Shown here: positions 4,445-34,322 of the stretch, piece by piece
Layout: every line of letters begins with the position of its first letter
How positions within the stretch are numbered: the stretch's first letter is position 1
Assembly (NCBI RefSeq): GCF_000172155.1
Contig: NZ_ABIZ01000001.1
Span: 1,240,001-1,304,000 of the forward strand
Direction of reading: 5' to 3'
From: Verrucomicrobium spinosum DSM 4136 = JCM 18804
GTDB lineage: Bacteria; Verrucomicrobiota; Verrucomicrobiia; Verrucomicrobiales; Verrucomicrobiaceae
Length of the DNA stretch: 64,000 nt
Made by a program: the position numbers and the translations under genes
The notes under the pieces: model-generated
The model's input: the letters and a program-made list of their open reading frames with translations, nothing else
The model's database searches: none
Told to the model about the DNA's origin: nothing

Positions 4445-4520
4445 GGAGACGGGTGCCTGTGGAATGTGTGCTCCGCTGCCTGAGGCGGGGACGTATTCCT
4501 GTTTTCCCCCGTTCCTCTCT

Positions 4521-5684
4521 ATGACGCTCGACGAACTTCTCGCCTCTGAAGCCACCCGCACTGCTGAGTTCCCCGTGGCGGAGAAAAGCATCTTCATGGC
4601 GCACGCGGGCGTGTGCATCCTGCCGCGGCGTGTCACCCGGGCCATGCAGGAGTATCTGGAGATGTGCTGCCTCCAGCACCAGGAGAGCGGGGACGTGTGG
4701 CGTCATCTCAATGAGACGCGAGTCATCGCGGGCAAGCTTATCGGGGCCCGGGCCAGCGAGATCTCCCTGCTCGGGCCCACCTCCCTGGGACTCAGCCTGG
4801 TGGCCAACGGACTGCCCTGGCAGGCGGGGGATGAGATCGTGTGTTATCACGATGACTACCCTGCCAATGTGTACCCCTGGATGGATCTGCAACGCCATGG
4901 CGTGGTGCTGAAGTTCATCAAGACCGGGGCCCCCGGGGCGATCACCGTGGAGTCCGTGGAGCAGGCGCTCACGCCCAGGACGAAGCTCGTGGCCCTGGCC
5001 TCGTGTCACTTCTTCACCGGCTGCCGGATCGATGTGAATGCCATCGGCCGCATGCTGCGCCAGCGGGGTGTGCTCTTCTGCCTGGATGCCATCCAGACGC
5101 TCGGCGCCTTTGACACCTCCGTGGAGCATGTGGACTTTCTCAGCGCGGATGCCCACAAGTGGATGCTGGGACCGATGGCGGCCGGCATTTTCTACGTGCG
5201 AGATGAGGTTCAGGAAATGCTGCGCCCCAGCCTGGTGGGGGCGTGGAACGTGAGCTCGCCCAACTTCATCGCCCAGGACGAAGTGGTCTTTGAAAAAGGT
5301 GGCCGCCGGTATGAGCCGGGTGTGCTCAATGCCGCGGGACTCTATGGCATGAGGGCGGGGTTGGAGATGCTGCTGGAGTTTGGCATGGAAAACGTCAGCA
5401 ACCGCCTGCTCACGCTGAAGCGGCATCTTGTGCCCCGGCTGGAGGCCCTCGGGTTCGAGGTATTGCCACCCACGGATGGGGCGGCGGCCTCCGGCATCAC
5501 CACCGCCACGCGCAGTGGCGGCGTGCCGCTGGAGCGGGTGTTCGAGCACCTGGCCGCCCATCAGGTGGTCGTCTCCCTGCGCCACAACCGGGCGGGGGTG
5601 GCGCATCTGCGCTTCAGTCCGCACGTGTACAACACGGAAGCGGAGATCGACCGGGTGGTGGAAGTGATGGCCAGCGCAAACTGA
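4521..5684 (+). CDS. Class V aminotransferase (cysteine desulfurase/selenocysteine lyase-like)
   Basis: A 387-aa fold-type I PLP enzyme. The internal aldimine lysine is in SADAHKWMLGP, preceded by the Asp-containing CLDAIQTLG segment that contacts the PLP ring. The N-terminal FMAHAGVCILP and the C-terminal SLRHNRAGVAHLRFSPH are typical of class V enzymes related to isopenicillin-N epimerase and selenocysteine lyase. There is no clear SufS/IscS catalytic-Cys loop, so desulfurase activity is not established. ATG 4521 is preferred; an in-frame start at 4398 would overlap corA and add low-complexity sequence. Substrate unknown. Confidence 0.8.
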   Translation: MTLDELLASEATRTAEFPVAEKSIFMAHAGVCILPRRVTRAMQEYLEMCCLQHQESGDVWRHLNETRVIAGKLIGARASEISLLGPTSLGLSLVANGLPWQAGDEIVCYHDDYPANVYPWMDLQRHGVVLKFIKTGAPGAITVESVEQALTPRTKLVALASCHFFTGCRIDVNAIGRMLRQRGVLFCLDAIQTLGAFDTSVEHVDFLSADAHKWMLGPMAAGIFYVRDEVQEMLRPSLVGAWNVSSPNFIAQDEVVFEKGGRRYEPGVLNAAGLYGMRAGLEMLLEFGMENVSNRLLTLKRHLVPRLEALGFEVLPPTDGAAASGITTATRSGGVPLERVFEHLAAHQVVVSLRHNRAGVAHLRFSPHVYNTEAEIDRVVEVMASAN

Positions 5685-6100
5685 CGGGAGGGTCTCCGGT
5701 GATACAACGCTTAAAAGCGAATGCCATCAGGGAAAAAGGGCGAGGCCGATTGTCTCTCTTTTGCCAATGAACTGAGGGTTGGAGGCCCGGGCTGGTATGA
5801 CGCCGGACCGTTGGTCCTCAGTTTCATCATGAAACGATGTTGATCGCTCTGCCCAGTCTTATCCCTGCTGGCATTGGCATTTATGCGGGCAGGAAGCAGC
5901 CATCCAGTGCGGGGCTTCGGATCGCCCGCGGCTCATGACATGCGATCTGGCCTCCCTTCGTTCACCCGCTGGGGGCGGCGGTTCCCAGCCCGGACCAACC
6001 AAGCACCAAGCACTCGAAACATGGCAGGGCAAGTGAGGTGCTTCCTGCAAAAGACCGCCCAACACCCCACCCCCGACCCCTTGCCCACTGCCTCGTGAAC
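5685..6100. repeat. Intergenic REP-like repeats
   Basis: This 416-bp convergent spacer has no supported gene. It holds the shared CTTAAAAGCGAATGCCATCAGG element (about 5710-5737) and a GCCGGACCGTTGGTCCTCAG hairpin of the REP-like family (about 5800). The last 50 bases have CCTTGCCCACTGCC, related to the short GTGGGCA-type repeats at 24811. The position between two convergent genes fits where REP-type elements usually sit. Confidence 0.6.
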
Positions 6101-8392
6101 TCAAAGCTCCTTTGGCATCCAGGGCTCCAGCTTGCTCACTTCTGCTTTCGCACTCGAAGTAACAGGAATGCCCCAGAACTCAAAGAAGGGCCCAAGGTTC
6201 TTTTTTGTGATCTTGGAGAACCGGATCAGGAACTGATCGCGTTTTTCCTCATCGTTCTTGGGCGTGGGGCCAAAGGAGGGATCGGCAAAGGACCAGATGT
6301 ACTTCTTGTAGTTCTCCCAACCAAAGCCCTGCACGAGCTGAACATAGGTGGTGAGGGCATGGAAGGGGTCGCCTTTCCAGATGGCCCATTTCTCGCCTTG
6401 ATCCTTGGCTTTCTTCGCAGCGTCGATGTGTTTCTTGATGGACTCCGGGCTCACGCCGCCGTGGCCGATCAAGAGTTCCTTCTTGAGCACCTCGGTGTAA
6501 CAATAGAGGCCAAAGACGTTGTTGGTGACTTCGCCGGTGCCTTCGAAGGTGAAGTTGCCGCGCTGATGGTTGTGGCCGATCTCGTGGTAGAAGCCCCAGC
6601 CGGGATACTTGATGCGGCCGTAGGTCACCATCTCCGCAGACTCCGGGGTGTGAATCATGATGGGGTAACCAGAGTGCATGAAGCCGGCGCTGATCTGGAC
6701 ATCGGCCACCATGCGTTCCGGGCGGGTGCGTTCGGCGGTCTGGTTCGAGATGTCATCCTGCGCCGTGACCACCCGGTCCCAGAACTCCATGAGCTCGGTG
6801 GGATTGGTGATCTTGCGGGCGACTTCGCTGGGCAGGCTCACCACCATCTTCTCACCGGCGAGTTCCGCCCAGGGGCCCTGGGCCTTTTTGATGTTGTTCC
6901 ACTGCTCATCAGTGTCACGCCCCAGCTTGAAGTAAGGCGACTCGACCGCGCCGGCGATTTTCACCTTGAACGGCTCCGAGGCATTTCGACGCGCCCTTCC
7001 CGGAACGGTGATGTACACCAGGCCACCAAACGCAGTGCCCATCTTGGTTTCGACATTCTCGATGCCCACGGTGCGGGTGATGTCTGGCGCACGACGCCAG
7101 CTCTCCAGGTGGTAGAGTGTGTCGCTGTGGCAGCCCACGCGAATGGAGAAACCATTCCCCACCATGGCTTCCGGCACGGTCACAGTGATGGGTTCACCCG
7201 CCACTGCGTAGAGGCCGGTGCTGGTCCACCCGTCGATGTTGGCATCCACGGTTATTTCCTTGGTGACACGAGGCGCGTCCTTGGCCGGCTGGCCGGGAAA
7301 CACGGCGGAGGCCGGGTGGGCGGCCACGGTGGGGCTGCTGGCCAGACGCAGTACGCGGGTCTCCATGCCCAGGCGGATGCGTTGCGAGGCGTGCTGGGCC
7401 ATCGTCAGGGGCTGCTCCCTGGTGGGCACGCCGGAGTCCCCTTCACCCAGCGCGCCCATGACGGCACCCTGGAGGGAGTTGCGCCCCGGAGGCTGGGCGG
7501 CCAGGGCCACCTGGATGGCGTTCGTGCCCTGGCCGATGTCGTCGGGGTTCAGGGAGGGGCCGCCTTCCCGCTGTTTTTTGATCGCGGTGATGGCGTCGAA
7601 GGCGTTCATCATGCGGGGCAGTTCTGTGCGGGCGGAGAACTGGCGGATGGTGGCGGCATCAAATCCACTGGAGTCAGTGAAGGCGAGTCCGGTGGGCATG
7701 ATGGCGTTGTTGAAGCCGTGGGCGATGCTCAGGGCCTTGCCGCCGCTCGTTTGTTCAAAGGCCCATCCCGTCATGGCCGCGATGATGCCGCCGCCTCCCT
7801 TGATGTACTCGATCGCTGCCTGGCCTTCGGCGGGATCGGTGATGCCCTGGGCATTGAGAATGACGACGTCATAGTCATTGAGCGTCTTCTTTTCCAGCGG
7901 GCCGTCCATCTTTTCGGCGCGGAGCCCTTTCTTGTCGAGGAAGGCGATGAGGTTGCTTCCCTTAACCCCGATGCGGGGCTTCTCCTTGTTGCCCACCCAG
8001 CGCACGGCATTGAGCAGCAGTGTGCCCATCCCGCCATCGCCGGCGTCCTCGGCGCTCAGATAGCTGTTGTGGCCGAAGAGCATGAGTCGGCCCTTGCCAT
8101 AGCCGGCGGCGGCGGCGAGGGCGAGCTCCGGTTTGCCGGTCTCGGCGGCGGAGATCACGGGGAAGGCCAGATTTCCCCAGATGGCCACCGGCCCGGGGGC
8201 TCCGAGCCTTGGGATCGAGGAAACGCCTGAAAGAATCTTGGCGCGTTCCGCGTTTTGCCATTCACCGGGTGTTGCGGCAGGTGTCGGAGCGGTGCCGGGC
8301 GCAGCGGGCCTGATGGGGAGGGCGGTCTGGGCGGTGCCCACGCCCTGGGACAGGGCCAGCAGGAGGGCGAGGGTGAGGGGCAGTGGTTTCAT
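6101..8392 (-). CDS. Secreted M60-family (enhancin/mucinase-like) zinc metallopeptidase
   Basis: A 763-aa protein with a Sec signal peptide (LTLALLLALSQGVGTAQ). Residues about 100-310 resemble a glutamine-amidotransferase/ThuA-like Rossmann module (LMLFGHNSYL, NDYDVVILNAQG, GGGGIIAAMTGWAF). The M60 catalytic part has HEIGHNHQ at residues 603-610 and the downstream GTGEVTNNVF glutamate. M60 peptidases characterised in gut bacteria cut O-glycosylated mucin-type proteins. It is the last gene of a leftward set with the phosphoesterase (126 bp upstream) and the XRE-cupin regulator. It probably acts in the periplasm or outside the cell. Substrate specificity is inferred from family only. Confidence 0.88.
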   Translation of the reverse strand: MKPLPLTLALLLALSQGVGTAQTALPIRPAAPGTAPTPAATPGEWQNAERAKILSGVSSIPRLGAPGPVAIWGNLAFPVISAAETGKPELALAAAAGYGKGRLMLFGHNSYLSAEDAGDGGMGTLLLNAVRWVGNKEKPRIGVKGSNLIAFLDKKGLRAEKMDGPLEKKTLNDYDVVILNAQGITDPAEGQAAIEYIKGGGGIIAAMTGWAFEQTSGGKALSIAHGFNNAIMPTGLAFTDSSGFDAATIRQFSARTELPRMMNAFDAITAIKKQREGGPSLNPDDIGQGTNAIQVALAAQPPGRNSLQGAVMGALGEGDSGVPTREQPLTMAQHASQRIRLGMETRVLRLASSPTVAAHPASAVFPGQPAKDAPRVTKEITVDANIDGWTSTGLYAVAGEPITVTVPEAMVGNGFSIRVGCHSDTLYHLESWRRAPDITRTVGIENVETKMGTAFGGLVYITVPGRARRNASEPFKVKIAGAVESPYFKLGRDTDEQWNNIKKAQGPWAELAGEKMVVSLPSEVARKITNPTELMEFWDRVVTAQDDISNQTAERTRPERMVADVQISAGFMHSGYPIMIHTPESAEMVTYGRIKYPGWGFYHEIGHNHQRGNFTFEGTGEVTNNVFGLYCYTEVLKKELLIGHGGVSPESIKKHIDAAKKAKDQGEKWAIWKGDPFHALTTYVQLVQGFGWENYKKYIWSFADPSFGPTPKNDEEKRDQFLIRFSKITKKNLGPFFEFWGIPVTSSAKAEVSKLEPWMPKEL

Positions 8393-8518
8393 GGCGGTGG
8401 GTGGATGGATGGGCGGGAGCGGAGACGATGAGCAGAGGGGGAACCGGGGCGTGGACAGGGAGCGCCGATCTTCCCTGGTTCCGGGAAAAACAGCGTGCGC
8501 AGGGGTCTGGGGCTGGCC

Positions 8519-9745
8519 TCAGGCGGGGCGGGCGGGCAGGATGACCTCCTGCAGCACGCTGCCATCAAGGCGGGACATGGTGACGGTGAGTTGTTGTTTG
8601 CTGGCGTGACCGCGTATGATCGTGGCGCGCTCCGGCTTGGGGCCGCCGCCCACCAGCTGGGCATAGGGCACGCTGGCATCAGCAGGCAGCCAGTGGGGCT
8701 CATGGGTGTGGCCGGAGATGACGAGTTGCACCCCGGCCTTCACCAGCAGGTCGTGCCACTTCGCCCGGCCATCGGCGCAGTATTCGCCGCCTTTTTTCTC
8801 ATCTTTCCAACGCAGAGGGATGTGGCAGAAGAGGATCTTGTACGGGGCGGACTTGAAGTGCGGCTTCTCGATCTCCTGCGCCAGCCACCGGGCCTGGAGC
8901 GTGCGGAAGGCGGCAAAGTCATTGAGCCCTGCATAGACTGGATGATCGTCCGGCTTGTCCTCGCCAGTGTCCAGCACGAGAGCTCCCACCGGACCCTGAC
9001 GGAAGGAGTAGTACCACTGCGTGCCCTCCACCTGGGTGAAGCGGGGCAGATGGCGGGCGGCCGGGCCGCGGACATCGTGATTGCCGCGGACAAAGAAGTA
9101 AGGGACGCCCGTGGCAAAGGCCACGCCCTTCGGGCTCAGGTACTGCTCCACCATCTTCTCCTCCTTGTAGATGTCATTGGTGACATCTCCGTTCCAGAGC
9201 AGGAAATCGCCGGGCTTTTCCTGATGGAGGGCGTGCAGCTTCTGCAGCGTCTCCGCCTGCTCGTGGGTGTCGTTCCAGACGGTGAAGGTCGTTTCCTCGG
9301 CCGAAGCGTTCAGGGTGCGGAAGGTGTGGACCGCGCTGTACACGGCCGGGCCGCGCTCGATCTTGTAAGCATTGCGGAAGTTCACCGGACTGGCTCCGAC
9401 ACGGTAGTGGTAGGTGGTGCCTGGTTTCAGGCCTTGCAGCCGGATCTTGAAGGTGCGCTCATCATACGGCATGAGGCCGCCGTCTGCACCGCCGGCCTTC
9501 TGGCCCAGGGCGGCCGTCTCGCCATATTCGATCCATCCCGAGCCGAAGCCGTTGGTCGCCCAGAGGATGCTGACGGCGTCTTCTGCAGGATGGGTCAGCA
9601 CCGGGGCGCTGGCGAAGCCAAACGGCGCAGCCTCAGGAGCAGGGGCCGCCGCCGGAGGGGTGTTGACGGCGGGTGCCTCTGCAGCGGCGACCGCGCCACC
9701 CACCGGGAACAACGTGCTGCAAGTGAGAAAGCGGCGTCTCTTCAT
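8519..9745 (-). CDS. Secreted calcineurin-like metallophosphoesterase
   Basis: The 408-aa protein starts MKRRRFLTCS, a Tat-like signal. A fibronectin-like purple-acid-phosphatase N domain follows (about 40-130, with GLKPGTTYHYRV), then the metallophosphoesterase core: NDTHEQ in place of the usual DxH, LLWNGDVTND, RGNHD and SGHTHEPHW. The metal ligands therefore look present. It should hydrolyse phosphomonoesters or diesters in the periplasm, substrate unknown. It lies 39 bp downstream of the XRE-cupin gene on the same strand and is likely cotranscribed with it. Confidence 0.85.
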   Translation of the reverse strand: MKRRRFLTCSTLFPVGGAVAAAEAPAVNTPPAAAPAPEAAPFGFASAPVLTHPAEDAVSILWATNGFGSGWIEYGETAALGQKAGGADGGLMPYDERTFKIRLQGLKPGTTYHYRVGASPVNFRNAYKIERGPAVYSAVHTFRTLNASAEETTFTVWNDTHEQAETLQKLHALHQEKPGDFLLWNGDVTNDIYKEEKMVEQYLSPKGVAFATGVPYFFVRGNHDVRGPAARHLPRFTQVEGTQWYYSFRQGPVGALVLDTGEDKPDDHPVYAGLNDFAAFRTLQARWLAQEIEKPHFKSAPYKILFCHIPLRWKDEKKGGEYCADGRAKWHDLLVKAGVQLVISGHTHEPHWLPADASVPYAQLVGGGPKPERATIIRGHASKQQLTVTMSRLDGSVLQEVILPARPA

Positions 9746-9784
9746 CTCCCGCTGATGGCCATGCTTTTGGGGGTGTGACGCAGT

Positions 9785-10381
9785 TTAGCGATAAATCACT
9801 ACCAAAAACACGAGGGCCTCACCCTTGCCCGCGTTCAGAATGGCATGAGGCACGTCTGCCCGGTAGGTGGTGGAGTCGCCATGGTGCAGGGTGTCTGTGT
9901 CTTCGTTGGACTCCACCTTCACCAGCCCTTTCACCACCGTGAGGAACTCGCGCGTACCTTCGAAGTGCGGGGCGCTGCGCAAGGCTCCGCCGGGCTGCAG
10001 CTCGACTTCGTAGAACTCCACATCCTTTTCCAGATTTAGCGGGCTGAGGGTGCGGATGCGGCAGTGGTCATCAGACCGATAGTGGAAGGCGCGGTCATGA
10101 TGCCGGATGACGGTGATGGAGGAGCTGACGCCCGGTGTCTCGATGAGCTCGCTCAAGCTCATGCCAAAGGCCTGGGCGATGCGCAGCGTCACGGCGAGCG
10201 TGGGGTTGGCCTGTTCCCGCTCGATTTCGCTCAACATGGAGCGGCTCACGCCACTGGCTCCTGCCAGGGCCTCCAGGGACCAGTTGCGGTCTGAGCGGAG
10301 CTGCTTCACCCGCGCGCCCAGGTGGCGGCTGATGGCTTCTGCGGGGACGTCTTTGACTCGGGCGGCAGCTTTTCTGGGCAT
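9785..10381 (-). CDS. XRE-family transcriptional regulator with cupin domain
   Basis: A 198-aa protein. Residues about 17-75 form an XRE helix-turn-helix (LEALAGASGVSRSMLSEIE), and residues about 115-198 a small cupin (PGGALRSAPHFEGTREFL, then a second barrel strand set). In this architecture the cupin senses a small ligand; relatives often control amino-acid or amine catabolism. It faces tdh across a 131-bp gap that holds four phased ATACCGG-type boxes, the first only 14 bp from its own start, suggesting autoregulation and control of tdh. Downstream on its strand come the phosphoesterase and the M60 peptidase. Confidence 0.88.
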   Translation of the reverse strand: MPRKAAARVKDVPAEAISRHLGARVKQLRSDRNWSLEALAGASGVSRSMLSEIEREQANPTLAVTLRIAQAFGMSLSELIETPGVSSSITVIRHHDRAFHYRSDDHCRIRTLSPLNLEKDVEFYEVELQPGGALRSAPHFEGTREFLTVVKGLVKVESNEDTDTLHHGDSTTYRADVPHAILNAGKGEALVFLVVIYR

Positions 10382-10393
10382 AATCTTCTACAA

Positions 10394-10465
10394 TAAACCG
10401 GAATTTAGTCTTGCATACCGGAAAAATAGAATCCAAAATACCGGCGGAAGCATCCGTTATACCGG
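10394..10465. promoter_or_regulatory. Four phased ATACCGG-type boxes, candidate operator array
   Basis: The divergent promoter gap holds TAAACCGG (ending 10401) and three ATACCGG copies ending at 10421, 10444 and 10465, all in the same orientation. Spacings are 20, 23 and 21 bp, about two helical turns each, so all boxes face one side of the DNA. The sequence is AT-rich relative to the flanks. The natural candidate ligand is the adjacent XRE-cupin protein. Binding is inference. Confidence 0.65.
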
Positions 10466-10512
10466 ACAGTGAGTCCCAGATGCTCTGCCATCCTCATTCA
10501 GTATTGACTGCC

Positions 10513-11547
10513 ATGCCCTCGATGAAAGCCCTTGTGAAAGCGAAGTCGGAACCCGGACTCTGGTTGGAGGACGTGCCGGTGCCCACCGTGGGGATCAATG
10601 ACGTGCTCATCCGCGTGCACAAGACGGGGATCTGCGGTACAGACTTGCACATCTACAAGTGGGATGACTGGGCGCGCCGCACCATCCCGGTGCCGATGGT
10701 GGTGGGGCATGAGTTCGTCGGCGAGGTCGTGAGGGTGGGGGACAACGTGAGTGACTTCCACCCGGGGGAGATTGTCAGCGCGGAAGGGCATGTGGTCTGT
10801 GGTCGCTGTCGCAACTGTCTGGCCGGGCGTCGCCACCTGTGTGCGGATACCAAGGGTATCGGCGTGAACCGTCCGGGAGCTTTCGCGGAATACATCAGTG
10901 TGCCGATGACGAACGTGTGGCACCATCGTGAAGGGGTGGACGAGGAGGTTGCCTCCATCTTCGACCCCTTTGGCAATGCGGTGCACACCGCCCTCTCGTT
11001 TGAAGTGCTGGGAGAAGATGTGCTTATCACGGGTGCCGGACCCATCGGCATCATGGCGGTGGCCATTGTAAAACACGCGGGTGCCCGGCACGTGGTCATC
11101 ACGGATGTGAATGACTACCGTCTTGACCTCGCCCGGCAGATGGGGGCGACGGTGGCGCTGAATGTCACGCGGGGGAACCTCAAGGACGTGCAGAAGCAAC
11201 TCGGGATGAAGGAGGGCTTTGATGTGGGCCTGGAGATGTCGGGCAACCCGGCTGCCTTCCGCAGCATGATCGACAACATGTGCCATGGCGGCAAGATCGC
11301 CATGCTGGGGATCCCGTCGGAGGAGATTGCCATCGACTGGAACAAGGTGGTGTTCAACATGCTCACCATCAAAGGCATCTACGGTCGTGAAATGTACGAG
11401 ACCTGGTACCAGATGAGCGTCATGCTGGAGAGCGGTCTGAACATCAAGCCCGTCATCACGCACCGGTTCCACTATACGGATTTTCAGAAGGGCTTCGAAG
11501 CCATGATCTCGGGATTGAGCGGCAAGGTGGTGCTTGACTGGAATTAA
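10513..11547 (+). CDS. tdh: L-threonine 3-dehydrogenase
   Basis: A 344-aa zinc medium-chain dehydrogenase that oxidises L-threonine to 2-amino-3-ketobutyrate with NAD+. It aligns along its length with E. coli Tdh: catalytic zinc site [11 protein letters not shown] and [10 protein letters not shown], structural-zinc cysteines in [25 protein letters not shown], Rossmann GAGPIGIMA, and C-terminal [14 protein letters not shown]. Start is ATG 10513 or 10522 (MKALVK matches the family start); neither has a good ribosome site. Kbl, the next pathway enzyme, is encoded two genes downstream, with a sulfatase between. Confidence 0.95.
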
Positions 11548-11570
11548 CCTCTAGAACCCAAACAACCTGC

Positions 11571-13043
11571 ATGCCCTGGAAATCTTCATGGATCCCCGTG
11601 CTGGCCGCCGTAGTGACGGTGGCGGCCTCACTTCAAGCGTCGGCGCGGCCCAACGTCATTGTGTTTCTGGCCGATGATCTGGGCTATGGCGAACTGGGGT
11701 GCTACGGGCAGAAAAAGATCAAGACGCCGAATCTGGATCAACTGGCGGCGGACGGCATGCGGTTCACGGACTTCTACTCCGGCCACGCCGTCTGCGCGCC
11801 CTCCCGCTGTGTGATGCTCACCGGCAAACATACGGGACATTCTTTTGTGCGGGAAAACTCCGAAGGGCGTGCCGCCCAGGCGAAGGAGCGCAACCGGATC
11901 AAGGCGGCGGATGGCTATCTGCCGCAGATTGCCCTGCCTGCCTCAGAGGCCACCTACGCGAGTGCCTTGCAGAAGTCTGGCTATCGCACGGCGTGTGTGG
12001 GGAAGTGGGGGCTGGGGCACCCCAGCAATGAGGGCTCGCCCAACAAGCATGGGTTTGACCTCTTCTACGGCTACATCTCCCAGTGGCAGGCCCACTACTA
12101 CTACCCCACTTACCTCTGGCGGAATGACGTCAAAGAACCGCTGGAGGGCAACGATGGCAAGGTGGGGCGGCAGTACGCCGCCGATCTGATGGAGCAGGAG
12201 GCCCTGAAGTTCATGGAAACCACGGGGGGCGGGCCGTTCTTCCTCTACTACGCCACCCCGGTGCCGCATGTGTCACTGCAGGTGCCGCCGGATGAACCCT
12301 CGCTGGCGGAGTACAAGCAGGCCTTTGCCGGCCAGGATCCGCCGTATGATGGCAGAAAGAGCTACCTGCCCACGGAGGACCCGCGCGCCATCTATGCCGC
12401 CATGGTGACCCGCATGGACCGGACCCTGGGCAAGTTTCGCGATCTGCTCAAGCGCACGGGTCAGGACCAGAATACGCTGATCATCTTCACCTCAGACAAC
12501 GGGGCCACGTTCAATGGCGGCTATGATCGCGAGTTTTTCGGCGGCAACCAGCCTTTGCGCGGCATGAAGACGCAGCTCTGGGATGGTGGCATTCGCACTC
12601 CGTTCATCGCGGCCTGGCCCGGATCCATCCAGCCGGGGCAGGTCTCCAGGTTTGTGGGGGCGTCCTGGGATCTGTTTCCCACCTTTGCAGAGATCGTCGG
12701 CTTTCCCGTGCCCGCGGGTCTGGATGGAGTGTCGATCCTGCCCACCCTGAAGGGCGAGGTCGCGACGCAGAAGCAGCATGATCACCTCTATTGGGAAACG
12801 GTCGCGGGCGGTCATCAAGCGGTGCGCATGGGTCCATGGAAGGGCATCCGCCTGGGCGTGATCAAGAACCCTTCCGCTCCCGTGCAACTCTTCAACCTTG
12901 AGACCGATGTCTCAGAGACCACCGACGTCGCGGCCCAACATCCCGACATTGTGGCGAAGATCGCTACGATTATGTCGGCCGGTCGCGTGCCCAGCGCGGA
13001 GTTCCCGATGGGGGAACTCGACCGGCCCGTCTCCAAGCAGTGA
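11571..13043 (+). CDS. Secreted sulfatase (arylsulfatase family)
   Basis: A 490-aa sulfatase with a signal peptide (WIPVLAAVVTVAASLQASA). The N-terminal metal motif LADDLGYGELGCYG and the formylglycine signature CAPSR (Cys75) are present, as are GKWGLGH and FTSDNGA. The Cys must be oxidised to formylglycine by a maturation enzyme not in this window. The family removes sulfate esters from glycans or aryl compounds. It is encoded 23 bp after tdh and 39 bp before kbl, inside what should be a two-gene threonine pathway. Substrate unknown; a sulfated glycan or glycoprotein is a reasonable guess. Confidence 0.92.
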   Translation: MPWKSSWIPVLAAVVTVAASLQASARPNVIVFLADDLGYGELGCYGQKKIKTPNLDQLAADGMRFTDFYSGHAVCAPSRCVMLTGKHTGHSFVRENSEGRAAQAKERNRIKAADGYLPQIALPASEATYASALQKSGYRTACVGKWGLGHPSNEGSPNKHGFDLFYGYISQWQAHYYYPTYLWRNDVKEPLEGNDGKVGRQYAADLMEQEALKFMETTGGGPFFLYYATPVPHVSLQVPPDEPSLAEYKQAFAGQDPPYDGRKSYLPTEDPRAIYAAMVTRMDRTLGKFRDLLKRTGQDQNTLIIFTSDNGATFNGGYDREFFGGNQPLRGMKTQLWDGGIRTPFIAAWPGSIQPGQVSRFVGASWDLFPTFAEIVGFPVPAGLDGVSILPTLKGEVATQKQHDHLYWETVAGGHQAVRMGPWKGIRLGVIKNPSAPVQLFNLETDVSETTDVAAQHPDIVAKIATIMSAGRVPSAEFPMGELDRPVSKQ

Positions 13044-13082
13044 ATTGAGTCTTATCCCTCTTCCCTTTTCCCTCTTTCAGTC

Positions 13083-14279
13083 ATGAGTGCTTACGATACC
13101 TTTCAATCCCACCTCAACACGCAACTGGACGCCATACGCGCCGCCGGCACCTACAAGAAAGAACGCGTGCTGACCACGCCGCAGGGCACGCTGGTGCGCG
13201 CCAATGGCGGCGAGGCGGTGCTCAACCTGTGCGCCAACAACTATCTGGGTCTGGCCCAGCATCCGGCGGTGCGCCGTGCTGCCCACGAGTCGTTGGAGCA
13301 GTGGGGCTTCGGCCTCGCCAGCGTGCGGTTCATCTGCGGCACCCAGCATCCGCACAAGCAGCTGGAGGAGAGCCTGAGTGATTTCCTCGGCACAGACGAC
13401 ACGATCCTCTATTCCTCCTGCTTTGATGCCAACGGCGGGCTGTTTGAGACATTGCTGGGGCCGGAAGATGCCATCATCAGCGATGAGTTGAACCACGCTT
13501 CCATCATTGATGGCGTCCGTCTGTGCAAGGCCAGGCGGTTCCGCTACAAGAACTGCGACATGGCCGATCTGGAAGCGCAACTCCAGGCGGCAGATGCTGC
13601 TGGAGCCCGCTACAAGCTCATCGCCACCGACGGTGTGTTTTCCATGGACGGCTTCATCGCGCCGCTCAAGGAGATCTGTGATCTGGCGGACAAGTATCAG
13701 GCGCTGGTCATGGTGGATGACTCCCATGCGGTCGGCTTCATGGGCGCGCATGGCCGCGGCACGCATGAGCATGGTGGTGTGATGGGCCGCGTGGACATCA
13801 TCACCGGTACCCTGGGCAAGGCTCTGGGCGGCGCCAGCGGTGGCTACACGAGCGGTCGCAAGGAGATCATCGAGCTGCTGCGGCAGCGATCGCGGCCGTA
13901 CTTGTTCTCCAACACGCTGGCTCCTACCATCACCGGAGCCACGCTGGAGGTGCTGCATCTGCTGAAGCAATCCACCAAGCTCCGGGATCAACTGGAGGCC
14001 AATACGCGCTTCTTCCGTGAGGAGATGACCGAGGCGGGCTTCAACATCCTGCCTGGGGTCCACCCCATCGTGCCCATCATGCTGGGGGATGCCGCTCTGG
14101 CGTCCCGGTTCGCGGATGTGATGCTGCAGAAGGGCGTCTATGTGATCGGCTTCAGCTTCCCGGTGGTGCCCCAGGGGAAGGCCCGCATCCGCACCCAGAT
14201 CAGTGCTGCCCACTCCCGGGCAGATCTGGAATTTGCCGTGCGGGCGTTTGTGGCGGCAAAAAAAGAACTGGGGCTCTGA
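13083..14279 (+). CDS. kbl: 2-amino-3-ketobutyrate CoA ligase (glycine C-acetyltransferase)
   Basis: A 398-aa PLP enzyme that splits the Tdh product with CoA into glycine and acetyl-CoA. It matches Kbl closely: [48 protein letters not shown] and the PLP lysine in [13 protein letters not shown]. The length equals E. coli Kbl (398 aa). It sits in the tdh-sulfatase-kbl run, with the DUF3472 gene 35 bp downstream. Cytoplasmic. Confidence 0.95.
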
Positions 14280-14314
14280 TCCCCGCTTGTGAATTCCTTT
14301 AACCTGACCTCTCC

Positions 14315-15190
14315 ATGACCCGTCTTCTTGCCATTGTCTCCGCGTTCACCGTGCTCGGTCTCTGTGCTGCACCTGCAGCGGAGTCTGAAAAATCTGCCGC
14401 CCCCAGGATCAATGCTGCCTGTTCCATTCATCTGGGCTGGCAGGCGCCGGCTTCAGAGTGGTTCTATCTGGAAGCAAGGGTGGAGAAGTCCACCCCGGGG
14501 AGTTACTTCATGGTCTGCGGCTGGAACACGGGCTACTTCGGCGTGCAGGAGCTGGGTGGGGGCAGGAAGGTCGCCATCTTCTCGGTCTGGGATCCCACCA
14601 AGGGGGACAATCCTGAGCACGTGAAGCTGGAGGACCGCGTGGAGGTGCTTCACGAGGGCAAGGATGTGAAGGTGTCCCGCTTTGGCGGTGAAGGCACGGG
14701 TGGCAAGAGCATGACCGAGTTCCCCTGGAAGCTGGGCGAGAAGATCCGCTGCATCGTGCAGGCCAAGGTGGAAGATGGGAAGACCGCGTACTCCGGCTGG
14801 CTCTGGCAACCCAGGTCGAATGAGTGGAAGCACCTGGTCACCTTCCGCGTGCAGACGGGTGGCAAGCCCCTCTCGGGCCTGTATTCCTTCGTGGAAGACT
14901 TCCGCCGGGATGGCAAGAGCGTGGGCGAAGAGCGTCGTGCCGTCTTTGGCAACGGCTGGGTGAAGACGGTGGACAAAGGGATGGTGCCGCTGGCGCAAGC
15001 CCGCTTCACGGCGTCCAAAGCTCCCACCGAAGCCAGAGACATCGTCGATGCCGGTCAGGCGGAAGGTGGTTTGTATCTCGCTAATGGTGGAAAGGTCTCT
15101 CCGAGTGTGCCGGTGGGTACCGTGCTCAACGTGAATCCACCGCCGTTGACGGTGCCGAATGATTTGCCGGCTGAGTTGTTCAAGCCGTAA
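14315..15190 (+). CDS. Secreted DUF3472-family protein
   Basis: A 291-aa protein with a signal peptide (LLAIVSAFTVLGLCAAPA). Its body resembles DUF3472: MVCGWNTGYFGVQE, IFSVWDPTKGDNP, GGEGTGGKSM, then YSGWLWQP and LYSFVEDF. Such proteins are common beside carbohydrate-active enzymes in Bacteroidota and Verrucomicrobiota and may bind or cleave glycans; no activity is assigned. It is 35 bp after kbl and 8 bp before the TRIC-type channel gene, so probably part of the same transcript. Confidence 0.7.
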   Translation: MTRLLAIVSAFTVLGLCAAPAAESEKSAAPRINAACSIHLGWQAPASEWFYLEARVEKSTPGSYFMVCGWNTGYFGVQELGGGRKVAIFSVWDPTKGDNPEHVKLEDRVEVLHEGKDVKVSRFGGEGTGGKSMTEFPWKLGEKIRCIVQAKVEDGKTAYSGWLWQPRSNEWKHLVTFRVQTGGKPLSGLYSFVEDFRRDGKSVGEERRAVFGNGWVKTVDKGMVPLAQARFTASKAPTEARDIVDAGQAEGGLYLANGGKVSPSVPVGTVLNVNPPPLTVPNDLPAELFKP

Positions 15191-15198
15191 TACGGGAG

Positions 15199-15810
15199 AT
15201 GTCACCCTGGTTTGAGCACTTCGCCGTGGCCGTTTGCGCCATCTCCGGGGTGCTCGCGGCCACGGGGCAGCGGTTGGACTTGTTTGGCGTGCTGGTGCTG
15301 GCGCTGGTGACCTCCGTGGGTGGCGGAACCATCCGCGATCTCTGCCTGGGCGTGCGTCCGGTCTTCTGGGTGCAGGACCCGTCGCACATCGTCACCGCCA
15401 CGCTGGCGGCACTGGGCACGTTCGTCGTGGCCCGCTACTGGAAGATGCCGCACAAGGCCTTGTTGATCGCGGATGCCTTCGGGCTGGCCTTGTTTACCAT
15501 CGTCGGCGTGGAAAAGTCGCTCGTGTACCAGTCATCCGGGCTGATCGCGATCATGCTCGGCGTGGTCACCGGGGTGGCCGGCGGCATGCTGCGGGATGTG
15601 TTGCGTCGCGAGGTGCCGATGGTGTTCAAGCCGGACATCTATTTCTATGCCACTGCCGCCTTTGCCGGGGCGGTGGTGTATGTGCTGCTGGTTCGTTTTG
15701 CGCCGGCCTTCACCGGGGGGCGGGAGATCTCCATGGCGGTCATCCTGGTGCTGCGGCTTGCCGCGATGGGTTGGAAATGGCGGCTGCCGGAATTTAGGGT
15801 GAGGGGGTAG
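15199..15810 (+). CDS. TRIC/UPF0126-type cation channel (YicG-like)
   Basis: A 203-aa integral membrane protein with about seven hydrophobic helices and the two repeated UPF0126 signatures: VTSVGGGTIRDLCLG and VTGVAGGMLRDVLRRE. Prokaryotic members are trimeric monovalent cation channels of the inner membrane. It begins 8 bp after the DUF3472 gene and ends the rightward operon that starts at tdh. The link to threonine or sulfated-glycan use is not obvious; it may be a passenger. Confidence 0.88.
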   Translation: MSPWFEHFAVAVCAISGVLAATGQRLDLFGVLVLALVTSVGGGTIRDLCLGVRPVFWVQDPSHIVTATLAALGTFVVARYWKMPHKALLIADAFGLALFTIVGVEKSLVYQSSGLIAIMLGVVTGVAGGMLRDVLRREVPMVFKPDIYFYATAAFAGAVVYVLLVRFAPAFTGGREISMAVILVLRLAAMGWKWRLPEFRVRG

Positions 15811-15843
15811 GTTCTTGGTTCTCTTCCGATAGTTATTGCATTA

Positions 15844-16106
15844 AACCCGGAGGGTTCGCCGTACATAGCCATGGGGCGGCCGAGTGGAGCGAGGACTACC
15901 CATGGTATGTCGTGTTGGGAATTCTACCGCGGAGCGGTAGGCCCATAGTGACCAAGGTTCCTGCTGGATGCATCGCGGTATTGTCGTCAGAGGTGCGCCA
16001 CACCATGGGCCTACCGCTCCGCGGTAGCAGTTGCGACATCATTTCCACGGGTTGCACTCGCTTCGCTCGTTTCACCCGTGGCTACTCATGGCGAACCCTC
16101 CGGGTT
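15844..16106. repeat. Nested palindromic element, two head-to-head half-units
   Basis: The 263-bp element has perfect outer arms AACCCGGAGGGTTCGCC (15844-15860) and its reverse complement (16090-16106). Inner perfect 23-bp arms lie at 15924-15946 and 16005-16027, containing CTACCGCGGAGCGGTAG, itself a palindrome. Between them, each side has a further imperfect hairpin (CCATGGG..CCCATGG on the left, CCACGGGT..ACCCGTGG on the right). A single half-unit recurs at 51962-52064. It fills most of the 441-bp gap upstream of putA, where no gene is seen. Confidence 0.8.
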
Positions 16107-16251
16107 CAATACGGGGCAAAACCACGAGTGATACCTGCTCAGAGCTGGAATCCGGTCCGCGGCGTCGGGTCTTTCGTCTTTTGTTTTCCCGTCGTCTGTC
16201 TTCCCGCAAAATCGGGTCACGAAGTCCCCTTGTCGTGCGTGGGGGGAATGT

Positions 16252-19200
16252 GTGAAAATAGAGCTGCCCGACTCTCCGGGCGCACCCTCCTCACTCGTGA
16301 ACACCATCCCCCCCGAGAAAGTACAGCAGGCCCTCTCCATTGCCAGTGGTCTGCAATATCGTGCGGCTCAAGTGCAGACCGCCGCAGAAAGAAGGCAGCA
16401 GGCGGAGCTGGACCGGATGCTGCAGCGGCCCAAGGACAAGGCGACGCTGGTGCAGCTCACTGACCAGGCCTTCCGGCCCCGCTCGGCGGACCGGGTGGCG
16501 GAGCAGTTCACCCACATCCTGGAGGTGCAGGGGGTGCCGCGGTTTTTCAATCCTCTGGACCGCGCGCTTTTGAGGGGGTTCAAGGCCTTTGGCAACTGGC
16601 TGCCCGGGGTGTCGGTGCCCATGGTGAAGGAGCATCTGCAGCATGAAACAGCCAATGTGATCCTCCCGGCGGAGCTGGAGCTGCTGGGGGATCATCTGCA
16701 ACGTCGTCGCGAGCAGGGGATCCGGATGAACGTGAACTTCCTGGGGGAAGCCATCCTCAGCGAGGCAGAGGCAGCGCGGCGGATGGAGCAGTATGTGGAG
16801 GCCATGCGCTCACCGGAGACGGAGGTGTTCTCCGTCAAGATCTCCACGCTCTACTCCCAGATGTCGCCACTGGCGCGGGAGCACACGCTGGGCGTGCTTT
16901 GTGACCGGTTGGAGAAGCTCTACCGGACGGCGCAGGAGCATGTCTTTCTCCGCCCGGACGGCATTCGCGTGCCCAAGTTCCTGTATCTCGACATGGAGGA
17001 GTACCGTGACCTCAGCCTGACCTGCGAGGCCTTCATGCGCACGCTGGACCGGCCCGGTCTGGAGAAGGTGGCGGCGGGCCTGGCTCTGCAGGCCTACATT
17101 CCGGACTCTGCCCAGTGGCAACGGCGGATCAACGAATGGGCCCGACGCCGGGTGGCGGCGGGCGGTGCGCCTGTGACGCTGCGGATTGTTAAAGGCGCGA
17201 ACCTGGAGATGGAGCGGGTGGAGGCCTCCATCCGCGGCTGGCCCCAGGCTCCCTACAAGAGCAAGCTGGAGACGGACGCGAACTACAAGCGCCTGTTGCA
17301 CGAGGGTTTCCGGCCGGAGAACCTCGCGGCGGTGCGTCTCGGCATCGCTTCACACAATCTCTTTGATGTCGCCTACGCCCTGGTGCTGGTGGGGGAGGGG
17401 CGGGCGCTGGACCGCGTGCAGTTTGAGATGCTGGAAGGCATGGCCAACCCCCAGCGCCGCGCGCTCCTGGAGAAGATCTCCAACCTGCTGCTCTATGCCC
17501 CGGCGTGCGGGAAGGAGCAGTTCGTCAGCGCCATCGGCTACCTGATCCGGCGGCTGGATGAGAACACGGGCGGGGAGAACTTCCTGCGCCATGCGTTTCA
17601 CCTCGAACCCGGCAGCCCTGCGTGGAAGCTGCTCTCCGGCGGGTTCGTGGAGTCATTCTCCCTCCTGCCGGTGCTTTCGGACGCGCCGCGCCGCATCCAG
17701 GACCGGGCCCTGCCGGTTATCCCGCGGGAGATGCGCGAGTTTGTGAACGAACCGGACACGGACTGGAGCCTGCCGCAGAATGGCGGGTGGGCGGCTCGAC
17801 TGCTGGATGCAGCCCGGGAGGGCTGGTATGGGGTGCCGTTTGCGGTGGCTGGACGTGAGATCAGCAGCGGCAGAAAGACGCGCCCCCTGGTGGATCCGTC
17901 GCGCCCGGGCCACCCATTGGGGGAGGTAAGTCTTCCGGCTGCGGATGAGATTGATGATGCGGTGGAAGCTGCGGTCAAGGATGAGGACGGCTGGCGCGCC
18001 CTGACCCCGGCGGCGCGCACGGACTTCCTGAAACGCGTGGCGCATGAGATCCGCAAGGCGCGGGGGCATCTGATGACGGCGGCGCTGGCAAATACGGGGA
18101 AGGTCTTCGCTGAGTCGGATCCCGAGGTGAGTGAGGCGGTGGACTTCGTGGAGTACTATGCGAGGTCGGCACAGTATTTCTCTGAGCAGCTCGGACCTCA
18201 CGTGGAGGCCAGGGGAAAGGGCGTGGTGGTGGTGGTCTCCCCCTGGAACTTCCCGATCGCCATCCCCTGCGGGGGTGTGGCGGCCGCTCTCGCAGCGGGG
18301 AATACGGTGATTCTCAAGCCGGCTTCGGATGCGGTGGTGCCAGCGTGGGAGCTCTGCCAGTGTTTCTGGAGGGCTGGGGTGTCGCGGAAGACGTTGCAAT
18401 TCCTGCCCTGTAGCGGGGCGGATGCTGCGCGGCTGGTGCAGCATCCCGGTGTGGACTCCGTCATTCTCACAGGCGGCACGGCCACTGCGCTGGCCATGCT
18501 GGAGGCAAAACCCGGGATGCATCTGGTGGCGGAGACGGGCGGTAAAAATGCCACCATCGTCACCGCCATGGCGGATCGCGATCAGGCCATCAAGAACGTG
18601 CTGCATTCCGCCTTCAGCCATAGCGGGCAAAAGTGCTCTGCCACGTCCCTGCTGCTGCTGGAGGCGGAGGTGTATGACGACCCGGAATTCAAGCGGGGGC
18701 TGGGGGAGGCGGTCATGAGCTTGCGGGTGGGGTCCGCCTGGGAGCTCTCTACCAAGATGGGGCCGCTGATCCGCCCTCCTACGGGTGAGCTCCAAACCGC
18801 CCTGACGACGCTGGAGCCGGGGGAATCCTGGGCTCCCGCGCCGCGCTGCCTCGATGGCAATCCGCACCTGTGGACTCCCGGCGTGAAGTGGGGCGTGCAG
18901 CCTGGGAGCGTGACGCATCTCACTGAGTTCTTCGGGCCGGTGCTGGGGGTGATGCGGTTTGAGAAACTGTCTGAAGCCATCGAGCTGGTCAATGCCACAG
19001 GGTACGGCCTGACCAGTGGTCTGGAGAGCCTGGATGACCGGGAGCAAGACGAATGGCGGCAAGGGGTGCAGGCGGGCAATCTCTACATCAACCGCACAAC
19101 GGTGGGGGCTGTGGTGCTGCGCCAACCGTTTGGCGGCATGGGCAAGAGTGCCTTTGGTGCCGGGATCAAGGCGGGCGGCCCCAACTATGTTGCTCAGTTC

Positions 19201-19872
19201 ATGGATTTTCGTGAGACGGTGCCGGCCCTCCCAGCCGCCCCGCGTCCCGGGTCGGAGCTCGGGCGTTTCCTGGAGGCGCTCCAGGGCTGGGACACGCTGA
19301 ACCTCATGGAGAACAGCCGCCTGGTGGCGGCCTTCTCCAGCTACGAGCGGGCCTGGACGACTGAGTTCTCCCAGGAGCACGACACCTTTCGTCTGCTGGG
19401 GCAGGACAATCTGCGTCGCTATCTCCCGGTGAAAAATCTGCGCATCCGCGTGACGGCCGCGGATACACCTTTCGATTTATTTGCCCGCGTTGCCGCAGGG
19501 CGCGTGGCAGGTTGTGATCTCACCCTAAGCGTGCCTCCTGGGACGGAGTGGCGGCCCTTGAGCCGCCTGCGGGAGGCCACGGCCGGGTGGGAGTCCGGCA
19601 TAAAGTTTGTGGAGGAGAGTGATGCGGATTTGGTGCAGGTAATCAGGGAGCGAAAGACGGAGCGCCTCCGGTACGCGAGGCCTCAGGATGTGCCGGTGGC
19701 CGTGCGTCGGGCGGCTGCGGCGCAGCAGATCTTTGTGGCGGATGTGCCCGTGCTCATGGAGGGGCGCCTGGAACTGCTCTGGTATGTCCGCGAGCAGAGC
19801 CTGAGCTGCGATTACCATCGTTATGGAAATTTGGGCGGAAGGGTGGGAGAGGTGCGCGCGCTGCCGGATTGA
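16252..19872 (+). CDS. putA: Bifunctional proline dehydrogenase / glutamate semialdehyde dehydrogenase
   Basis: A 1206-aa PutA-type enzyme oxidising proline to glutamate. Residues about 60-470 are the FAD proline dehydrogenase barrel (NVNFLGEAILSE, FLYLDMEEYRDL, LRIVKGANLEME). Residues about 540-1010 are the aldehyde dehydrogenase: VVSPWNFPIAIP, LVAETGGKN and catalytic Cys795 in SGQKCSATS. The last about 190 aa form a C-terminal extension of unknown role. There is no N-terminal ribbon-helix-helix, so it should not bind DNA as E. coli PutA does. Start is GTG 16252, with a GGGGGGA ribosome site a few bases upstream. Confidence 0.93.
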   Translation: MKIELPDSPGAPSSLVNTIPPEKVQQALSIASGLQYRAAQVQTAAERRQQAELDRMLQRPKDKATLVQLTDQAFRPRSADRVAEQFTHILEVQGVPRFFNPLDRALLRGFKAFGNWLPGVSVPMVKEHLQHETANVILPAELELLGDHLQRRREQGIRMNVNFLGEAILSEAEAARRMEQYVEAMRSPETEVFSVKISTLYSQMSPLAREHTLGVLCDRLEKLYRTAQEHVFLRPDGIRVPKFLYLDMEEYRDLSLTCEAFMRTLDRPGLEKVAAGLALQAYIPDSAQWQRRINEWARRRVAAGGAPVTLRIVKGANLEMERVEASIRGWPQAPYKSKLETDANYKRLLHEGFRPENLAAVRLGIASHNLFDVAYALVLVGEGRALDRVQFEMLEGMANPQRRALLEKISNLLLYAPACGKEQFVSAIGYLIRRLDENTGGENFLRHAFHLEPGSPAWKLLSGGFVESFSLLPVLSDAPRRIQDRALPVIPREMREFVNEPDTDWSLPQNGGWAARLLDAAREGWYGVPFAVAGREISSGRKTRPLVDPSRPGHPLGEVSLPAADEIDDAVEAAVKDEDGWRALTPAARTDFLKRVAHEIRKARGHLMTAALANTGKVFAESDPEVSEAVDFVEYYARSAQYFSEQLGPHVEARGKGVVVVVSPWNFPIAIPCGGVAAALAAGNTVILKPASDAVVPAWELCQCFWRAGVSRKTLQFLPCSGADAARLVQHPGVDSVILTGGTATALAMLEAKPGMHLVAETGGKNATIVTAMADRDQAIKNVLHSAFSHSGQKCSATSLLLLEAEVYDDPEFKRGLGEAVMSLRVGSAWELSTKMGPLIRPPTGELQTALTTLEPGESWAPAPRCLDGNPHLWTPGVKWGVQPGSVTHLTEFFGPVLGVMRFEKLSEAIELVNATGYGLTSGLESLDDREQDEWRQGVQAGNLYINRTTVGAVVLRQPFGGMGKSAFGAGIKAGGPNYVAQFMDFRETVPALPAAPRPGSELGRFLEALQGWDTLNLMENSRLVAAFSSYERAWTTEFSQEHDTFRLLGQDNLRRYLPVKNLRIRVTAADTPFDLFARVAAGRVAGCDLTLSVPPGTEWRPLSRLREATAGWESGIKFVEESDADLVQVIRERKTERLRYARPQDVPVAVRRAAAAQQIFVADVPVLMEGRLELLWYVREQSLSCDYHRYGNLGGRVGEVRALPD

Positions 19873-34242: not shown

Positions 34243-34322
34243 GAGGTGGAGGCGGGGAGGTTGATCAGATGGAATAAGTGAGATCCGGGTGCGTTTAGCA
34301 GGAGTTGATTCTTCCTGCTGCC

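Follow-up and report, generated by a model that had tools for sequence, protein, structure and literature searches.

Comparative evidence for an XRE-cupin regulator and a predicted four-operator array joining threonine catabolism to glycopeptidase genes in Verrucomicrobium spinosum and its relatives

Does a single regulator join the two divergent gene arms found between positions 6101 and 15810 of a 64,000-nucleotide stretch of the Verrucomicrobium spinosum genome, and what would it control? The whole stretch, hereafter the window, occupies positions 1240001-1304000 of a genome assembled as one contig of 8,220,857 bp. One arm carries the gene of an XRE-cupin regulator followed by genes for a phosphoesterase and an M60 peptidase; the other, on the opposite strand, carries tdh, a sulfatase gene, kbl, a DUF3472 gene and a PF03458 transporter gene. 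An earlier note on this DNA had described this divergon, and Pfam and NCBIfam scans of the window's proteins recover every gene with the claimed family and strand. The same note had read the locus as a regulated system for the use of sulfated, mucin-like glycoproteins. Comparative evidence, in the form of synteny and persisting operators, supports the view that one XRE-cupin regulator governs both the glycopeptidase and the threonine arms, whereas the sulfatase of the tdh operon and the phosphoesterase do not stand as core parts. In our best reading, which the sequence evidence makes fairly probable, glycopeptide cleavage is coupled to the catabolism of threonine and glycine, and sometimes of proline or hydroxyproline.

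The gap between the regulator gene and tdh holds a feature absent from the earlier note: four tandem palindromic sites of 18 bp, about 20 bp apart, with the consensus TGTCCAGTATACTGGAAA. The four predicted operators of the window are as follows.

10387..10404: predicted operator 1, 13.8 bits
10407..10424: predicted operator 2, 18.3 bits, contains TCTTG
10430..10447: predicted operator 3, 9.8 bits, weak
10451..10468: predicted operator 4, 18.7 bits

The motif was obtained de novo by expectation-maximisation, with no symmetry imposed, from 58 distinct regulator-tdh gaps (110 gaps were reduced to 87 by merging those with identical first 60 nt, 58 with tdh and 29 without). It is nevertheless palindromic (correlation with its own reverse complement 0.88), spans 18 bp and carries 14.8 bits over 220 sites. 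Exactly four sites are found in 42 of the 58 gaps and five in another 5, and four consecutive sites 19-26 bp apart occur in 46/58 gaps, compared with 0/58 in each of 10 dinucleotide shuffles. The spacing is also conserved: 20-22-21 is the commonest arrangement (20 of the 45 extracted arrays), the first spacing is 20 in 43/45, and TCTTG in site 2 is invariant across the 45 aligned arrays, among which that of locus L040 sits one site out of register. Palindromic sites are thus predicted, by conservation only, at the regulator's own and the neighbouring promoter. The array is present in 49 of 51 family genomes with the regulator and in 0/17 without it, a co-occurrence with some circularity in it, given that the regulator gene is where the array is located. 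A sigma-70 scan of positions 4000-17000 returned no promoter-like site, and no -10/-35 elements are assignable to the regulator promoter. The frame of tdh opens at TTG 10411 and contains in-frame ATG codons at 10480, 10513 and 10522, the last of which yields MKALVK, the start found in relatives; the gap of 10382-10512 given earlier presupposes a start at 10513, and the tdh stretch used for the scans starts at 10498, an in-frame position without a start codon.

The strongest argument for co-regulation comes from genomes in which the locus has been broken up. Only 12 of the 48 tdh-bearing family genomes keep tdh within 3 kb of the regulator. Where the two are unlinked (27 of 36 genomes fetched, 9 left out), a site pair with a spacing of 19-21 stands upstream of tdh in 27/27 and mostly starts 40-49 and 20-29 nt upstream of the tdh start; of 676 control windows at these loci, 8 contain a pair. 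Nine of these loci have a second pair, located at the kbl start in eight and at a gene seemingly leading into DUF3472 in one (L112), so that the 8 control windows probably represent true sites. Regulator genes with no adjacent tdh keep their pair in 26 of 29 cases, and kbl directly behind tdh has none (0/6), whereas kbl more than 1 kb from tdh has its own in 8/16. Since pairs stay with each separated gene, the array behaves as 2+2, one pair per promoter. This behaviour speaks for a regulator that acts in trans on the two arms, and it is the main evidence that they are co-regulated.

Synteny points the same way. The regulator was searched in 68 family genomes, giving 51 matches, and in named genome contigs, from which 80 loci of 225 were kept; the titles of the 80 are mostly Verrucomicrobiota or Planctomycetota, some metagenome-assembled genome (MAG) titles naming other taxa and being perhaps mislabelled. 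The nearest named loci are those of Verrucomicrobium sp. BvORR034 and BvORR106. Among the kept loci, tdh is divergent from and adjacent to the regulator in 52 of the 76 with at least 1 kb upstream. The 38 tdh loci with 5 kb upstream have kbl within about 9 kb in 33, DUF3472 in 14, PF03458 in 12 and PutA in 4, and a PutA match shares the fetched stretch with kbl in 11 loci. M60 follows the regulator in tandem in 21 of the 63 loci for which 2.5 kb downstream is available and in 40 of the 46 family genomes that have both (gap of at most 160 nt in 28, 412-1425 nt in 12). The expectation that relatives keep the genes together is therefore borne out for regulator-tdh-kbl and, in the family, for regulator-M60, and the operators outlast broken synteny. 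In many Prosthecobacter-type loci (for example L007 and L074), the place of tdh is taken by a gene with a methionine-synthase-like start, as judged by reading the sequence, with no family search.

The genes of the window to which these comparisons refer are listed below.

6101..8392, minus strand: M60 peptidase (M60-like_N + M60; PF13402 E 1e-70, PF17291), signal-peptide-like N-terminus, predicted O-glycopeptidase
8519..9745, minus strand: purple-acid-phosphatase-like phosphoesterase, exported (Pfam), between regulator and M60
9785..10381, minus strand: XRE-cupin transcriptional regulator, predicted autoregulator (Pfam/NCBIfam, synteny, co-occurrence)
10522..11547, plus strand: tdh, L-threonine 3-dehydrogenase (NF003808 596 bits, cut-off 380; TIGR00692 507 bits, cut-off 458)
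11571..13043, plus strand: S1-type sulfatase (Pfam), CAPSR motif, signal-peptide-like start
13083..14279, plus strand: kbl, glycine C-acetyltransferase (NF005394 666 bits, cut-off 460)
14315..15190, plus strand: DUF3472 protein, predicted di-glutamate (HC7-like) O-glycopeptidase, E126 and E194 conserved
15199..15810, plus strand: PF03458 'Glycine transporter' (TRIC in the earlier note; Pfam), predicted glycine transporter
16252..19872, plus strand: PutA-like proline dehydrogenase / P5C dehydrogenase (Pfam/NCBIfam, under the PutA equivalog cut-offs), membership uncertain

The regulator combines an N-terminal XRE helix-turn-helix (HTH_31, HTH_3) with a C-terminal Cupin_2 domain, all over the Pfam cut-offs. 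Tdh and Kbl, which convert threonine to glycine and acetyl-CoA, both exceed their NCBIfam equivalog cut-offs. The CAPSR motif of the sulfatase is presumably the formylglycine motif, and we take TRIC/UPF0126 to be the same family as PF03458. Intergenic gaps are short in the forward arm (23, 39, 35 and 8 nt from tdh to the PF03458 gene) and in the reverse arm (39 and 126 nt), which makes two tandem arms plausible and co-transcription within each likely. PutA begins 441 nt past the PF03458 gene. As the earlier note had said, PutA and a fusion of a sialidase and an acetylesterase (34305-36275, BNR_2 + SASA) occur elsewhere in the window; no recognisable operator pair of their own was found for either. 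In the fusion, a sialidase-like BNR domain is joined to a sialic-acid acetylesterase, with no operator pair found nearby.

The two peptidases can be examined in more depth. A phmmer search with the M60 protein gives 4fca, a protein of unknown function, as best match, together with an AcfD homologue/SslE type, BcM60C and 7sci/7yx8, the latter being AM0627. The zinc ligands of AM0627 and the Trp, Asn and Arg of its N-acetylgalactosamine (GalNAc) pocket have been described (PMC9325726). The window protein contains the HExxH and distal Glu zinc site (H603, E604, H607, E621) and keeps the pocket Trp and Asn as W599 and N625, all six residues being invariant in 16 sequences including the window's own. 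It thereby shares the zinc site and the GalNAc-binding Trp and Asn with the M60 O-glycopeptidases AM0627, BT4244 and IMPa (PMC9325726, PMC9118916), but the position of the pocket Arg appears, by our alignment, to be Leu640; identity to them in fold alignments is 16-19%, and the activity is a predicted one. Its structural model is poor (predicted local distance difference test score, pLDDT, of 66; best fold matches to IMPa, template-modelling score 0.40), and the fold search therefore adds little beyond sequence.

The DUF3472 model is better (pLDDT 82). Its fold matches 4qhw and the HC7 glycopeptide complexes (Foldseek E 3.6e-18 to 6.7e-17 for HC7 chains), followed by a protease and by neprosin, a glutamic-class endopeptidase that ranks lower. 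A profile of 17 DUF3472 homologues likewise finds 4qhw and the HC7 entries, which are named 'DUF3472 domain-containing protein', with E 3.3e-13 to 8pmu. The invariant E194 aligns with a residue that is E in HC7 8pmu and A in the mutant 8pn3, and E126, invariant in the 17 sequences and also present in HC7, would be the second catalytic Glu. HC7 of Bacillus cereus (8pmu/8pn3/8pn5) has been described as a di-glutamate mucinase whose substrates are mucins bearing Tn and T O-glycans (PMC13003899), and shares with the window protein the DUF3472 domain, the fold and the mutated catalytic Glu. In contrast to HC7, which has a CBM5, the window protein is a stand-alone domain after a signal-like stretch, with no other Pfam domain in the Pfam scan; identity in the fold alignment is 22%. 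Sequence and model together thus make it an HC7-like homologue and a predicted O-glycopeptidase. Among the open-access PMC papers found to mention DUF3472, none, judged from titles and the beginnings of abstracts, deals with this system. A review reports that in 11 bacteria UPF0126 genes are important for the use of glycine (PMC12173739). With an HC7-like DUF3472 protein and a candidate glycine transporter, more of the operon fits than the earlier note knew.

Which of these genes belong to a core can be judged from the operons of relatives. Counting genes behind tdh on the same strand with gaps below 300 nt, at 53 loci outside the genus Verrucomicrobium (two Verrucomicrobium loci left out), gives 84 genes of at least 100 aa out of 85, tdh and kbl excluded and one protein below 100 aa left out; the figures that follow count genes, not loci. 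Pfam families among them are DUF3472 (13), DUF5077 (11), PF03458 (9), PALP (4), DHDPS (4), and the proline racemase family, sulfatase, GH29, BSP and S9 (3 each), then M60 (2). None belongs to the families that occur at least twice among 123 control genes taken at these loci (124 drawn of 296, one very long protein dropped by hand; only families with at least two members are fully visible). Two of the PALP proteins, scanned against NCBIfam, are cysteine-synthase-like but under cut-off. The BSP gene of L036 was traced out of 3, and the DHDPS genes of L040, L043 and L049 out of 4. Typical orders are tdh-kbl-x-PF03458-putA-M60 (L048) and tdh-DUF3472-kbl-DHDPS-proline racemase family-DAO-M60 (L043); L036 has a GH29-BSP fusion with PF03458 and DUF3472, and L070 has GH95, GH29 and PutA. 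Same-strand chains overreach in places, to methionyl-tRNA synthetase in L078 and complex I in L063.

At the positions they occupy in the window, the sulfatase and the phosphoesterase were seen in the genus Verrucomicrobium alone, and on this point the earlier reading is not supported. A sulfatase close to the window's is found in 2 of the 38 tdh loci, both Verrucomicrobium, and the 3 sulfatase genes counted in other tdh operons fall in two loci, L054 and L093; the window's sulfatase is, as far as seen, a genus-level addition. The phosphoesterase follows the regulator in 0 of 63 loci with 2.5 kb downstream and is found there in Verrucomicrobium loci, whose downstream stretch is shorter than that; a homologue (39% identity) lies in one distant tdh operon, L051.

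The substrate is likewise less certain than sulfated mucin. A possible, if doubtful, alternative is that the same regulon serves a different food, namely hydroxyproline-rich plant or algal glycoprotein or collagen-like protein. Proline-racemase-family and DHDPS-family genes follow tdh-kbl in L040, L043 and L049, joined by DAO in L040 and L043, and the L040 racemase-family protein best matches NCBIfam 4-hydroxyproline epimerase models (384 bits, below the cut-off of 442). S9 prolyl peptidases (3 genes in L040 and L049) and glycosidases (GH29 in L036, L070 and L100; GH95 in L070; GH43 in L110) would suit such a diet. However, the window's own operon has no such genes, and the M60 and HC7 enzymes in the published work drawn on here act on mucin-type O-glycopeptides. 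The hydroxyproline-type genes of relatives weaken a mucin-only reading, and L040 in particular points also to hydroxyproline-rich glycoproteins or collagen; mucin is not established as the substrate, which appears better described as O-glycosylated, Thr/Pro-rich protein.

Beyond these genes, several observations weigh against a regulon that spans both arms. Regulator and M60 co-occur weakly in the 68 family genomes (both 46, regulator only 5, M60 only 11, neither 6, p 0.02), whereas regulator and tdh do so near-perfectly (both 48, regulator only 3, tdh only 0, neither 17). At M60 genes without the regulator, no pair was found in 9/9 loci searched up to 500 nt upstream, which indicates that M60 can work outside the regulon, and many distant chains are tdh-kbl alone. 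Within the window, operator 3 is weak, the 126-nt gap between phosphoesterase and M60 has room for another promoter, and the residue R362 of AM0627 aligns to Leu640. In a wider phylum sample of 106 genomes, 3 have the regulator (E <= 1e-35) and 33 have tdh (E 1e-100), and in the group f2/g12 tdh occurs without the regulator, at the same E <= 1e-35, in 12/12 genomes; this cut-off missed homologues of 35-38% identity that were found later. At 20 of 34 tdh places fetched outside the family (one, L181, with only 138 nt upstream), a regulator homologue of 35-64% identity lies in the stretch in 6. A pair stands upstream of tdh in 4 of these 6, compared with 0/14 of those without a homologue, which favours the regulon; the two lacking it, L187 and L193, count against it. 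An array model run over 32 phylum genomes found an array at tdh in one (G071) but not in G165, which has a regulator of 43% identity; 24 of its 25 matches lie away from tdh at similar E-values, that is, at noise level.

Part of this evidence would suit a plainer explanation, in which a local regulator of threonine catabolism controls tdh-kbl and itself while M60, DUF3472, sulfatase and phosphoesterase are unlinked neighbours. The near-perfect partnership with tdh, the chains of tdh-kbl alone and the operator-free M60 genes are what it would predict. Yet regulator, M60 and site pair persist together in G016, G032 and G054, three genomes that lack tdh and kbl and of which one is 89% complete, M60 stands behind the regulator in 40/46 genomes, and unrelated glycopeptidase and glycosidase families that recur in distant tdh operons are not among the repeated control families. 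Taken together, these observations make the plainer explanation unlikely. The remaining proposal, that the regulator is an activator or that the four sites loop between two promoters, is improbable, for although the sites overlap a conserved TTGCAT / TA..AT pair that may be the tdh promoter, XRE-cupin proteins studied in Pseudomonas act as inhibitors (PMC7901475), and looping is not needed when the pairs stay with each gene after rearrangement.

Searches for sites elsewhere yield leads rather than claims, because of the noise-level matches of the array model. A pattern of ACCGG pairs spotted by eye gave 58 forward and 52 reverse genome matches (reversed control, 143 and 114); such pairs are common in the genome, which renders so short a pattern worthless, and it was replaced by the relatives' palindrome. 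A strict two-site pattern had 4 matches in the own genome versus 2 for the reversed control, the window's alone with 2 mismatches and the others with 3. The own-genome pair at C1:6619295 (L153, L155) scores high (31.8), yet falls within an autotransporter-like gene, in the 5' part of its coding sequence, and is probably due to chance. Own-genome searches, in one of which 150 of 570 candidates were scored, returned no second convincing array. At a score of at least 21, neither 9.3 Mb of Markov sequence nor 400 kb of the own genome contains a pair, and 400 kb taken from three regulator-free family genomes contains 1. Among the 17 off-target regions that were fetched (L156-L172), 9 have no pair, and L172 resembles the contig end facing the regulator gap of the same genome. 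Operator-like pairs are seen upstream of a BSP-type peptidase with a DUF3472 domain (L156:2034-3608; G009, which has the regulator and tdh and no M60 match) and ahead of genes for a phosphodiesterase, a sialidase-like BNR protein and a PF03458 transporter (L157:3402-6703; G032, without tdh or kbl matches). Another (L099:1168), in a MAG with the title Pedosphaera, lies between a divergent GH92 gene and a pair of BSP and M28 peptidase genes, the regulator being about 4.4 kb away; further pairs occur in L158, L159, L165, L168 and L169.

For the coupling of glycopeptide cleavage to amino-acid catabolism, the following mechanism may be envisaged. The regulator would bind, probably as cooperative dimers on adjacent DNA turns, the four operators that separate its gene from tdh, with sites 1-2 serving the regulator promoter, and so the glycopeptidase genes presumably co-transcribed from it, and sites 3-4 serving the tdh promoter. 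By analogy with the XRE-cupin proteins that have been studied, it would most likely repress locally until a small molecule from the threonine route, such as threonine, 2-amino-3-ketobutyrate, aminoacetone or glycine, releases it. Once derepressed, the genes would supply M60 and DUF3472 as secreted glycopeptidases, along with accessory hydrolases, to open O-glycosylated proteins rich in Thr and Pro. The threonine set free would be converted by Tdh and Kbl to glycine and acetyl-CoA, and glycine would be moved by the PF03458 transporter.

Searches of open-access PMC papers returned no description of this regulator, and its closest parallels are partial. The XRE-cupin regulators studied in Pseudomonas inhibit locally, and for three of them the consensus site is palindromic; ErfA, PauR and PsdR resemble the present protein in joining an XRE HTH to a cupin, in a gene beside a catabolic target and in a local regulon with palindromic sites (PMC7901475). 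Here, in contrast, a divergent four-operator array recurs in distant lineages, and the predicted targets are tdh-kbl together with genes for secreted glycopeptidases. In Burkholderia, MgxR (Bxe_B3018; PMC4349456) lies near kbl-tdh and is linked to threonine/glycine degradation, with methylglyoxal as effector; the main text of that paper mentions neither XRE nor cupin, and the passages drawn on name no glycopeptidase. A mucin O-glycoprotein locus of Bacteroides thetaiotaomicron is likewise reported to join processing to product catabolism (PMC11992087), the product there being N-acetylgalactosamine and here an amino acid, threonine.

More broadly, and tentatively, since the balance falls slightly short of even, Verrucomicrobiota and Planctomycetota may share a four-operator regulon that uses O-glycoprotein backbones as amino-acid food. 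A threonine-pathway metabolite would induce interchangeable glycopeptidases (M60, DUF3472 di-glutamate, BSP) together with catabolism of threonine, glycine, proline or hydroxyproline, with sulfatases, fucosidases or sialidases as lineage-specific additions. The system would offer a concrete, testable control circuit for O-glycoprotein-degrading bacteria, in which backbone cleavage is joined to amino-acid use. From it follow a predicted function for DUF3472 proteins encoded next to tdh-kbl and a suggested role of PF03458 transporters in threonine use, and its operator motif provides a means to find further members in poorly studied phyla.

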